Positions 52,209 to 56,650 of a stretch of 64,000 bases of DNA are shown here, piece by piece. The stretch covers positions 1 through 64,000 of the forward strand of contig NZ_AZUK01000001.1 in the NCBI RefSeq assembly GCF_000527035.1, in the 5' to 3' direction. The notes beneath the pieces are model-generated. The model saw nothing but the letters and a program-made list of their open reading frames with translations, made no database searches and was not told the DNA's origin. The number at the start of each line of letters is the position of its first letter. Position 1 is the first letter of the stretch. Source of the stretch: Tolumonas lignilytica. Lineage in GTDB: Bacteria > Pseudomonadota > Gammaproteobacteria > Enterobacterales > Aeromonadaceae. The translations under genes and the position numbers were made by a program.

Positions 52209-52228
52209 ACCTGTCGCGTTATATCAAG

Positions 52229-52254
52229 CGCCTGCTTATAAGCAGGCGTTTTTG
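52229..52254 (+). terminator. rho-independent terminator of the di-Mop gene
   Basis: CGCCTGCTTATAAGCAGGCG is a perfect palindrome followed by five T's, about 20 bp past the stop. Confidence 0.93.
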
Positions 52255-52375: not shown

Positions 52376-54067
52376 ATGTTGCTGACTGAACAGGAAAAAA
52401 CCAAAGAATTCATTGGGGAGGTTGTAAACAAATATCCCCGACAAGCATCGTCGTTGCTTTCTATTCTTTGGGCGGTTCAGGTAGAGTATGGGTATGTCTC
52501 TGATTTTTCAATGCAATATATCGGTGACTTGCTGGATATCTCACCCGCTAAAATCTATGGTGTCGCCACCTTTTATCATTTCATCAATAGAAAACCGCAA
52601 GGGAAATTCATTATTCGCCTGAGCCGGGATATCGCCTCCATCATGAAGGGGGCTTTAGTGATTGCTCGTCAGCTAGAAAATATTCTGGGTATCCCGTTTG
52701 GTGAAACAACCACTGATGGCATGTTCACACTACGGTGGGTCAATGGTATCGGTCTGGATGATCAGGTGCCCGCCATGTTGGTTAACAATACGGCATTTTC
52801 TAATCTCACCTCACTAGCCATTCCTCAAATCATTGAAGAATGCAAAACAACATATCAAACGCATCAACCGCTAGTCGGCAAATGCAAAGAAACGGTCACC
52901 AATACACTGACTTATGCTGAACACCAATCCAATAGTGGGCTTCGTAAAGCGGTACAACTCAGCCCAGAGCAGGTACTGGCGGAGATAGCATCATCTGGCT
53001 TGTGTGGACGTGGTGGCGCAGGGTTTCCAACCGGCAAAAAATGGAAAATAGCCGCGTCCATGAAAAGTGATATGAAATACCTGATTTGTAATGCAGATGA
53101 AGGTGAACCAGGCACTTTTAAGGATCGCGTCATTCTTTCTCGATTCGCTGATACGCTCATGGAAGGCATGACCATTGCTGCATATGCCATCGGGGCCAGC
53201 CAGGGCATTATTTATCTTCGGGCCGAATATGCCTACATACGGCCTCAACTCGAACAGGTTCTGAAGGTCAGACAAGAGGCTGGGCTATTAGGAGAAAATA
53301 TTCTCGGGATACCCAACTTCACGTTTGAAATCCGTATTCAGATGGGGGCAGGTGCTTATGTCTGTGGGGAAGAGACGGCGCTCATCGAGTCGTTGGAAGG
53401 AAATCGTGGTGAGCCACGCGATCGTCCGCCCTATCCGGTCGAAGTGGGTTTGGATGGCAAACCAACCGTCGTTAATAATGTAGAAACGTTAGCCACGGTC
53501 AGCATGATTTTGGAACGAGGTGCCGCCTGGTTTTCCAATATGGGTACTGAACGGTCGAAAGGCTTCAAGTTATTCAGTGTGTCAGGTGATTGTCTTCGTC
53601 CGGGGCTGTATGACTTGCCATGGGGACACTCGATATCAGAGATACTGATGCTCGTCGGTGGTGAACATGCGAAAGCCGTTCAGGTGGGCGGATATTCAGG
53701 AAAATTATGGCCCGCGTCAGCATTTGGGCGACGGTTAGCCTACGAAGACCTGGGGCCAGGCAGCTCCATCATTATCTATGGGCCTGAACGCGATCTGCTT
53801 TGGGTGGCGCAATATTATCTGGAGTTTTTTGTCGAAGAATCATGTGGTCAATGCATACCTTGTCGTGATGGAAACGTGGTTTTGCTGAATGGGATCCGCG
53901 CATTAAGAGACGGTCGATGCTCCGAACAGCAACTCACCGAACTGTTGGATCTGGCGGATACCATGCGGCTGACGGCGAAATGCGGTTTGGGTCAATCCAG
54001 CCCCAATATACTGATTGCACTCAACCAATATTTTCGCGATGAACTGATAACTCGCAGAAAGGAATAG
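52376..54067 (+). CDS. NuoE-NuoF fusion, NADH-binding subunit of [FeFe] hydrogenase
   Basis: 563 aa. Residues 1-150 resemble NuoE (24-kDa, thioredoxin-like): PAKIYGVATFYHFI, GETTTDGMFTL. Residues 180-560 are NuoF: FMN site GRGGAGFPTGKKW (211-223), NADH site GAGAYVCGEETALIESLEG, and 4Fe-4S ligands in SCGQCIPCRDG plus AKCGLGQ. It lacks the C-terminal ferredoxin extension of HydB-type subunits. In the NuoE part all four 2Fe-2S cysteines are replaced (Ser83, Ser88, Gly124, Asp128) and no Cys occurs before residue 156. It precedes hydA by 4 bp and would bring NADH electrons to it. Start ATG at 52376 follows GGAGG at distance. Confidence 0.9.
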   Translation: MLLTEQEKTKEFIGEVVNKYPRQASSLLSILWAVQVEYGYVSDFSMQYIGDLLDISPAKIYGVATFYHFINRKPQGKFIIRLSRDIASIMKGALVIARQLENILGIPFGETTTDGMFTLRWVNGIGLDDQVPAMLVNNTAFSNLTSLAIPQIIEECKTTYQTHQPLVGKCKETVTNTLTYAEHQSNSGLRKAVQLSPEQVLAEIASSGLCGRGGAGFPTGKKWKIAASMKSDMKYLICNADEGEPGTFKDRVILSRFADTLMEGMTIAAYAIGASQGIIYLRAEYAYIRPQLEQVLKVRQEAGLLGENILGIPNFTFEIRIQMGAGAYVCGEETALIESLEGNRGEPRDRPPYPVEVGLDGKPTVVNNVETLATVSMILERGAAWFSNMGTERSKGFKLFSVSGDCLRPGLYDLPWGHSISEILMLVGGEHAKAVQVGGYSGKLWPASAFGRRLAYEDLGPGSSIIIYGPERDLLWVAQYYLEFFVEESCGQCIPCRDGNVVLLNGIRALRDGRCSEQQLTELLDLADTMRLTAKCGLGQSSPNILIALNQYFRDELITRRKE

Positions 54068-54071
54068 TTAA

Positions 54072-55943
54072 ATGTCTGTCTCAACTGAAGGTACCGATAA
54101 TGGCATTATCCATTCTGTTGCGGTGAACATCGACGGTGTTGAAGTGAGCGTTCCCTCGGGCACGACTATTCTGGCGGCTGCGAGAAAAGCCGGTTTGCGA
54201 ATACCAACATTATGTGATCATCCTGATCTCCGTCCGATCGGCGTTTGCCGAATTTGTGTGGTAGAAATTGAAGGGCAGCGCGACCTTCAGACAGCATGTA
54301 CTTATCCCATTACAGAACCCATTCAGGTGCGAACGACAAGCGCCAGAATACGCAAAGCGCGGCGTCATCTTATTGAATTGCTGCTTATGGATCACTGCGG
54401 TGACTGTAACACCTGTCATCGAAATCATAACTGTGAGTTGCAAACGCTGGCCGCCGAGTTTGGGGTGGATACATTTCGTTTTGGTCATCCGATTACACCG
54501 AAATACAGCATTGATAGTTCCAGCACCTCGTTGGTATGCGACATGAACAAGTGTATTTTATGTCGCCGATGCATCCGTGCCTGTAATGAGCTGCAAACCG
54601 TCGGCTGTCTTGCCATTTCCGGCCGAGGCGAGGATACCCGTGTCACCACCTTCGAAGAGCTTCCTCAAGCTGCGGCCATCTGCATTGAATGTGGTCAGTG
54701 TATTGTTCACTGTCCGACTGGCGCGCTTACTGAAACTGATCAAACCAATGAAATCTGGGCAGCGCTGGAAGATCCGAGTAAACACGTGATCATTCAGACC
54801 GCACCATCACCCAGAGCCGCCATTGGAGAATGTTTTGATCTGGAACCCGGCATCCCGCTCACCTTTGAAATGAACACGGCAATCAAACGGATGGGATTTG
54901 ATGCGGTTTTTGACACCAATTTTTCTGCCGATCTGACCATCATCGAAGAAGGAACTGAGCTGCTGATGCGGCTGTATTCGGCGTTGGTCAACAAGAATGC
55001 CGCGCCAAAATTGCCCTTACTTACCAGTTGTTCCCCCGGCTGGGTTAAATACATCGAGTATTTTTATCCTGAATTTCTGGAGTTTTTGTCCACGGCAAAA
55101 AGCCCACAGCAGATGTTTGGTGCCATCATCAAAACTTATTACGCCAGTAAGAAGGGTATTGATCCTAAAAATATTGTGTCTGTTTCGTTGATGCCATGTA
55201 CGGCCAAAAAGTTTGAATGTAACCGGCCAGAGATGACGGCATCAGGGCTAAAAGATGTTGATTACGCGCTGACCACACGTGAGTTAGCCAAAATGATGCG
55301 GGAATCCGGCATTGATTTACCTAACCTGCCCAAAACACCGTTCGATGACCCATTTGGTATGCCCACCGGTTCTGGAGTTATCTTTGGGGCGACAGGCGGG
55401 GTCATGGAAGCTGCGCTGCGAACTGTGATTGAAATAGTCACCGGTAAGAAAGTAGAAGATTTCTATGCAAATGCCGACATTATTCCAGTGCGCGGTTTTG
55501 ACGGTATTCGTCTGGTTGAAATTCCGATCAAACAGACAGGGCCGGTGCCTGAATTGCTCCAGCATCTGTTTACTGACTTTGACTGGTTGCAAGGCGTGAC
55601 GCTGCGTGTCGCGGTGGCTCATGGGGTTGCCAACCTGCATAAGGTCATGGAAGACATCAAGGGCAAAGGCTTTTTCAGTAAATGTCATTTTATTGAGATG
55701 ATGGCTTGTCCGGGGGGGTGTCTGGGTGGTGGCGGTCAACCGATCCCGACCAGTGCTGAGATCCGCGCTAAACGGGCAAAAGCAATTTACAGCGAAGACG
55801 CTAACTATGTGGTTCGTAAATCACATGAAAATCCGCAAGTGCTCCAAATTTACCGTGAATTTTTGCAAGATGGCCCTTGTAGTCTGAAAGCACATGAGTT
55901 GTTACATACGACCTATATACCGCGTGGTAAGTTCATGCCCTGA
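54072..55943 (+). CDS. hydA: [FeFe] hydrogenase catalytic subunit, M3 type
   Basis: 623 aa. N-terminal 2Fe-2S domain (C48, C59, C62, C76), His-Cys3 4Fe-4S motif (H108, C112, C115, C121), two 4Fe-4S clusters (C156-C171, C204-C214), then the H-cluster domain: TSCSPGW (318-324), MPCTAKKFE (374-382), EMMACPGGCLGG (542-552). Reduces protons with electrons from the preceding NADH-binding subunit, or oxidises H2. The first motif has Ser where TSCCPxW is the textbook form; I recall Ser variants in NAD(P)-linked enzymes, so I do not read it as inactive. Maturases HydE, HydF and HydG are not in the window but are required. Confidence 0.93.
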   Translation: MSVSTEGTDNGIIHSVAVNIDGVEVSVPSGTTILAAARKAGLRIPTLCDHPDLRPIGVCRICVVEIEGQRDLQTACTYPITEPIQVRTTSARIRKARRHLIELLLMDHCGDCNTCHRNHNCELQTLAAEFGVDTFRFGHPITPKYSIDSSSTSLVCDMNKCILCRRCIRACNELQTVGCLAISGRGEDTRVTTFEELPQAAAICIECGQCIVHCPTGALTETDQTNEIWAALEDPSKHVIIQTAPSPRAAIGECFDLEPGIPLTFEMNTAIKRMGFDAVFDTNFSADLTIIEEGTELLMRLYSALVNKNAAPKLPLLTSCSPGWVKYIEYFYPEFLEFLSTAKSPQQMFGAIIKTYYASKKGIDPKNIVSVSLMPCTAKKFECNRPEMTASGLKDVDYALTTRELAKMMRESGIDLPNLPKTPFDDPFGMPTGSGVIFGATGGVMEAALRTVIEIVTGKKVEDFYANADIIPVRGFDGIRLVEIPIKQTGPVPELLQHLFTDFDWLQGVTLRVAVAHGVANLHKVMEDIKGKGFFSKCHFIEMMACPGGCLGGGGQPIPTSAEIRAKRAKAIYSEDANYVVRKSHENPQVLQIYREFLQDGPCSLKAHELLHTTYIPRGKFMP

Positions 55944-55960: not shown

Positions 55961-56650
55961 ATGGCTAACATGGCTCTGAGCGATAGACAGAAATCGCTAT
56001 TTACGATTGCGGCACTGGCCACGAAAGGGGATCTGGATGCATTGCGGGAGAGTCTGCGAGTCGGGCTGGATGCTGGCCTGACTATCAGTGAAATCAATGA
56101 AATTCTCATTCAACTGTATGCATACACCGGGTTTCCTCGCAGTTTGAATGCGATTAATACGTTTATGTCCGTATTGGATGCCCGCAAGATACAGGGTATT
56201 CAGGATGTCATCGGGCAAGCACCGCATCCATTTCCTGCTCATAAAAATAAATTTAAACTCGGTTGTGAGAATCAAAACCGATTAATGGGCGCGGCGCATC
56301 CGGCAATGCCTGCCTTAAATTTTGTTCCAATCATGGATATTTTCATTAAAGAACATCTGTTTGCAGACATCTGGGGGCGTGATAATCTTGATTTTCAATC
56401 ACGTGAGCTGGTCACGATTGCGGCATTGGCGTGTTTAGGCGGTGTGGATTTACAACTCTTCACTCATCTGAAAATCGGGTTGGAGAATGATCTTACGCCT
56501 GAGTTACTCGCTGAACTAGTTGTGGTTTTATCGGCACAAGTTGGAAAAGAGGAAGCTGATAATATGGGTCAGCTTCTAACGCGTCTTTATAAGGTTTTTC
56601 ATGGCGAACATTTGGCTCCACCGCAAACAGACACTCATCAAAGCCATTAA
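55961..56650 (+). CDS. carboxymuconolactone decarboxylase (AhpD-like) family protein
   Basis: A 229-aa protein with two CMD halves: residues ~5-80 (QKSLFTIAALATKGDLDALRESLRVGLDAGLTISEINEILIQLYAYTGFPR) and ~130-220 (QSRELVTIAALACLGGVDLQLFTHLKIGLENDLTPELLAELV). The CxxC of AhpD peroxidase-type members is absent, so a decarboxylase, or an uncharacterised role. It follows hydA by 17 bp and is probably in the same operon, which is unusual. The downstream gene overlaps it. Confidence 0.87.
   Translation: MANMALSDRQKSLFTIAALATKGDLDALRESLRVGLDAGLTISEINEILIQLYAYTGFPRSLNAINTFMSVLDARKIQGIQDVIGQAPHPFPAHKNKFKLGCENQNRLMGAAHPAMPALNFVPIMDIFIKEHLFADIWGRDNLDFQSRELVTIAALACLGGVDLQLFTHLKIGLENDLTPELLAELVVVLSAQVGKEEADNMGQLLTRLYKVFHGEHLAPPQTDTHQSH

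Follow-up and report, generated by a model that had tools for sequence, protein, structure and literature searches.

The window, by which we mean the whole stretch of 64,000 nucleotides analysed here (Tolumonas lignilytica contig NZ_AZUK01000001.1, positions 1 to 64,000), contains a two-gene unit, hydB and hydA, encoding a NuoE-NuoF fusion protein and the catalytic subunit of an [FeFe]-hydrogenase. The features to which we refer below are the following:

52226..52251, plus strand: terminator-like hairpin in the gap that separates hydB from the mop-type gene upstream (pattern only)
52376..54067, plus strand: hydB, HoxF-type NuoE-NuoF fusion of 563 aa (uninterrupted ORF, Pfam, PDB sequence and fold matches)
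52418..52846, plus strand: NuoE-like thioredoxin-fold domain without cluster ligands, residues 15-157 (Pfam PF01257 and search of the own genome)
52622..52624, plus strand: codon 83, Ser replacing ligand Cys 1 (alignment)
52637..52639, plus strand: codon 88, Ser replacing ligand Cys 2 (alignment)
52745..52747, plus strand: codon 124, Gly replacing ligand Cys 3, with Cys kept in most congeners (alignment)
52757..52759, plus strand: codon 128, Asp replacing ligand Cys 4 (alignment)
52985..53503, plus strand: NuoF FMN/NADH-binding domain, intact, residues 204-376 (Pfam PF01512, invariant columns)
53804..54046, plus strand: NuoF N3 [4Fe-4S] domain, intact, C490/C493/C496/C536 (Pfam PF10589, invariant columns)
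54072..55943, plus strand: hydA, [FeFe]-hydrogenase catalytic subunit of NCBIfam group A6, 623 aa, 4 bases 3' of hydB
55023..55043, plus strand: HydA L1 motif TSCSPGW, with Ser where the [4Fe-4S]H ligand (CpI C300) would be
55961..56650, plus strand: carboxymuconolactone-decarboxylase-family gene, accompanying hydBA across most of the genus (Pfam)

In HydB the Pfam family 2Fe-2S_thioredx was found at residues 15-157 with 127.5 bits, together with Complex1_51K and NADH_4Fe-4S. HydA was assigned by NCBIfam to the NADH-dependent group A6 [FeFe]-hydrogenases with 785 bits, exceeding the cut-off. The carboxymuconolactone-decarboxylase-family gene lies directly 3' of hydA in seven of the eight Tolumonas loci (the window, L057, L058 and L060 to L063) and is absent in L059. 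With regard to possible transcription signals, terminator-like hairpin sites are no commoner in the window than in shuffled sequence, and a scan for FNR boxes upstream of hydB gave no match. The window and its congeners have in common a GCTATGATCAT-like element 5' of hydB, the window copy being GCTATGCTCATA, which is possibly a promoter -10 region.

The cluster-ligand columns of the NuoE half were set by alignment with the complex I NuoE of the same genome, which reads C-C-C-C. At these columns HydB has S83, S88, G124 and D128, and the claim of the first-pass annotation that all four [2Fe-2S] cysteines have been lost is thus borne out. Since Gly124 cannot be a ligand, a normal four-ligand cluster is impossible in this half of the protein. 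That annotation had also proposed to survey whether the loss is clade-wide, and it proved to be genus-wide in Tolumonas: the six congeneric copies aligned have no more than one cysteine each at the four columns, reading S-A-C-D in four copies, S-S-C-D in one and S-S-S-D in one. The nearest hydA-linked fusion outside Tolumonas, from another gammaproteobacterial family (genome G104), reads S-S-C-S. As judged from these alignments, ligand positions 1, 2 and 4 are lost clade-wide and position 3 is lost in two Tolumonas species, including that of the window. Sequencing error or chance was rejected as the source of the loss, the same pattern being present in the six congeneric copies.

The remainder of HydB was also as first described. 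The NuoF half is intact, its N3 cysteines (C490, C493, C496 and C536) and its FMN/NADH motifs being invariant among 25 homologues. The fold is predicted to be kept without the 2Fe-2S cluster, the AlphaFold model having a mean pLDDT of 90.3 and HoxF as its best PDB fold match, and the suggestion that the NuoE half may be a structural remnant is a reasonable one.

The closest PDB sequence to HydB is the HoxF of the Hydrogenophilus thermoluteolus NAD-reducing hydrogenase (5xf9_A, matched over residues 21-558), a protein that is likewise without three of the four NuoE cysteines. This HoxF was also the best fold match of the predicted HydB structure, over the full length and with a TM of 0.88-0.90. 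Other HoxF homologues show varied ligand columns, such as C-A-C-S in Cupriavidus necator and S-D-C-C in many gammaproteobacteria, and all four cysteines are gone in two of them, from Lichenicola cladoniae (L070, 3944-5725; S-S-D-A) and a member of the Desulfobulbaceae (L034, 3941-5911; N-A-D-G). A contig scan with HydB as single query found three relatives, of which the fused L033 and L034 served as HoxF-type references and the third, L035, matched a bifurcating HydC-HydB set. In a 37-sequence tree the fusions linked to hydA fall into a single clade (98/93) that adjoins the HoxF fusions and stands apart from bifurcating HydC-HydB and from complex I.

This loss of cysteines is not peculiar to the Tolumonas protein, since the same has been published for the HoxF of Ralstonia eutropha: in a 2011 study of HoxFU this subunit was described as similar to an Nqo1-Nqo2 fusion without N1a, a lack ascribed to the missing cysteines (PMC3189943). 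HydB thus adds an example, in an [FeFe]-hydrogenase context, to a loss already known from HoxF, and is not a new phenomenon. In common with the HoxF of R. eutropha/C. necator and of H. thermoluteolus it has NuoE and NuoF in one chain, the same length and fold, and an incomplete set of N1a ligands in the NuoE part; the FMN/NADH motifs and the four N3 cysteines of a HoxF-type protein are also found. However, HoxF has HoxU, HoxY and HoxH as partners whereas the partner of HydB is a one-piece HydA, in which a HoxU-like N-terminus is joined to the H-domain, and the two groups of fusions form separate clades. No hoxU, hoxY or hoxH was found beside hydB, the next gene being hydA, and the genome is without a [NiFe] large subunit. 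Since it is not encoded with these three genes, we call HydB HoxF-like and not HoxF.

The missing cluster had been thought relevant to electron bifurcation. In HydABC the [2Fe-2S] cluster of HydC is believed to be important for bifurcation, but N1a of complex I lies outside the main path (PMC9499530), and the latter fits with a cluster being lost in HydB. Losey and colleagues showed biochemically that the HydAB dimer of Syntrophus aciditrophicus, in which HydB is a NuoE-NuoF fusion, is non-bifurcating and NADH-dependent, and gave the residues that discriminate the two types (PMC7311640). Bifurcating enzymes have A/E and M where HydB has T247 and K249 (EPGTFKDR), Phe where it has Y353 (RPPYPV), and GGPSG where it has GGYSG (PMC7311640). 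By these published criteria HydB is of the non-bifurcating type at all three places and, moreover, Pfam found in it neither the N-terminal [2Fe-2S] domain nor the C-terminal ferredoxin/2[4Fe-4S] domain, so that the proposed relevance is not supported. A separate HydC encoded elsewhere was considered and rejected: the genome has no separate HydC or NuoE with the cysteines, and its other NuoE, a single one, belongs to complex I and lies inside the nuo operon.

The Tolumonas and S. aciditrophicus enzymes thus share two subunits, a NuoE-NuoF fusion and HydA, and the non-bifurcating residue pattern. For S. aciditrophicus, nevertheless, two [2Fe-2S] clusters per heterodimer are predicted from its domains, and the fusion presumably carries one of these, whereas the Tolumonas fusion is without that site. 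It is extremely unlikely that HydAB is a bifurcating enzyme of the HydABC type in which the missing cluster has been functionally replaced. The NuoF and HydA parts are indeed homologous to those of HydABC (Thermotoga maritima, Acetobacterium woodii, T. kivui), and A. woodii HydA1 is the nearest PDB relative of HydA, but the diagnostic residues differ, the extra HydB cluster domains and a separate HydC are absent, and the fusion belongs to a clade distinct from HydC-HydB.

The residues of the HydA H-cluster pocket and proton path that we checked are all kept, save that HydA has Ser where CpI has C300, a state in common with A. woodii HydA1, and the accessory-cluster ligands are all conserved. 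The residue before Pro in the L1 motif is taken as the cubane ligand following a CpIII paper (PMC12138974), and Ser at this position has also been noted in Melainabacteria (PMC3787301). In the congener at locus L059 the motif reads SSCCPGW.

Between close pairs dN/dS was 0.045-0.06 for HydA, 0.07-0.12 for the NuoF half and 0.16-0.18 for the NuoE half, synonymous sites being saturated in distant pairs. The gene hydA is under strong purifying selection. These values bear on whether the loss of cysteines is part of a general decay, with HydAB a decaying remnant. The NuoE half does evolve faster than NuoF and HydA, but each of the three domains has a dN/dS far below 1 and the hydB frame is open in all seven loci read, which makes decay very unlikely. 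That hydB is a pseudogene was likewise rejected, since congeners share its pattern and dN/dS is low.

HydE, HydF and HydG were sought with the profiles TIGR03956, TIGR03918 and TIGR03955, respectively, in the genome of the window and in its congeners, and none reached the cut-off in the eight hydA-bearing Tolumonas genomes as assembled. Six of these are 99-100% complete, including G787 and G796, each a single contig. All three maturases were recovered by the same profiles in G104, which served as positive control, and in T. maritima, and the best Tolumonas matches were at the level of ThiH and of unrelated GTPases, so that an oversight by the search was rejected. The neighbouring DNA places the top HydG-profile match of the window's genome in an apparent thiamine (thi) operon. 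With no HydF, HydG or HydE above the cut-off, hydrogen chemistry cannot be assumed for Tolumonas HydAB.

A precedent is Rhodospirillum rubrum, whose [FeFe]-type hydrogenase without maturases was judged probably inactive or of different function (PMC4967309). Both genomes carry a hydA-type gene and lack HydE, HydF and HydG; Tolumonas differs in that its hydA is paired with a diaphorase gene, the two-gene unit being conserved across a genus of gammaproteobacteria.

Taking these data together, we think it probable that hydBA encode a soluble, non-bifurcating HydAB composed of a HoxF-type diaphorase and an M3/A6-type HydA, with the NuoE domain as a cluster-free cap. HydB and HydA would form a soluble complex in which electrons would pass from NADH to FMN and to the N3 [4Fe-4S] cluster in HydB, and then through the accessory clusters of HydA towards the H-cluster domain. 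N1a of the NuoE domain, being outside the electron path in complex I, would be dispensable, and this would allow the domain to persist as a structural cap. This reading agrees with the match to HoxF by both sequence and fold, the clade in the tree, the three sets of non-bifurcating residues, the low dN/dS and the HydA ligands, and by likeness with the R. eutropha HoxF diaphorase, which works despite its cluster loss (PMC3189943). Against it, a cluster of the NuoE type is predicted for both of the non-bifurcating enzymes that have been characterised.

What this complex does at the HydA end, as distinct from the diaphorase end, can be refined in two ways. It is quite plausible, if somewhat short of an even chance, that HydAB neither makes nor consumes H2, HydA carrying [4Fe-4S]/[2Fe-2S] clusters only and no [2Fe] subsite. 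HydAB could then be an Fe-S oxidoreductase or sensor that is linked to NADH and has a different acceptor, and it may be tied to the carboxymuconolactone-decarboxylase-family protein. The absence of maturases, the single-contig genomes included, points in this direction, as do the R. rubrum precedent and the adjoining gene in seven of eight loci. The retention of the pocket and proton-path residues argues to the contrary, because relaxed selection would be expected if the [2Fe] subsite were never inserted, and the one exception is the Ser seen in A. woodii HydA1. More tentatively, HydAB may be catalytically active as an NADH-dependent hydrogenase, with diverged or unrelated proteins assembling its H-cluster in place of recognisable HydEFG. 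This is consistent with the strong purifying selection on HydA, with its retained catalytic residues and with hydBA being the only hydrogenase-type gene set found, a [NiFe] large subunit being absent in the six Tolumonas genomes checked for it. However, no candidate maturases emerged, the best radical-SAM matches being at ThiH level and one of them in the apparent thi operon.

A bolder reading, to which we give an even chance, is that Tolumonas keeps a fully conserved two-gene NADH-hydrogenase complex, its only hydrogenase, without HydEFG, and that there is either an undiscovered route to the H-cluster or an H-domain selected for a non-hydrogen reaction fed by a cluster-poor HoxF-type diaphorase. 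The loss of cysteines alone is of modest interest: alongside the HoxF cases already known there is now a natural, [FeFe]-linked variant that lacks N1a, useful for probing the role of the off-path cluster. The absence of maturases from a genus that conserves hydBA, as it appears from profile searches of assembled genomes, is more interesting and weighs more, since it concerns a culturable genus with a HydA under selection for whose active site no assembly pathway is known. Whether HydA has a HydEFG-independent or H-cluster-free function thereby becomes directly testable in Tolumonas.

As to distribution, HydA was found within the Aeromonadaceae only in Tolumonas, in eight of 11 genomes. A survey of the phylum gave a strong HydA match in 2 of 397 other genomes, neither with a fusion in the flanks read. 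In genomes G432 and G379, where no HydE, HydF or HydG was found, loci L046 and L047 encode a distant HydA with a C-terminal extension of about 90 residues that is, by eye, NTF2/SnoaL-like.
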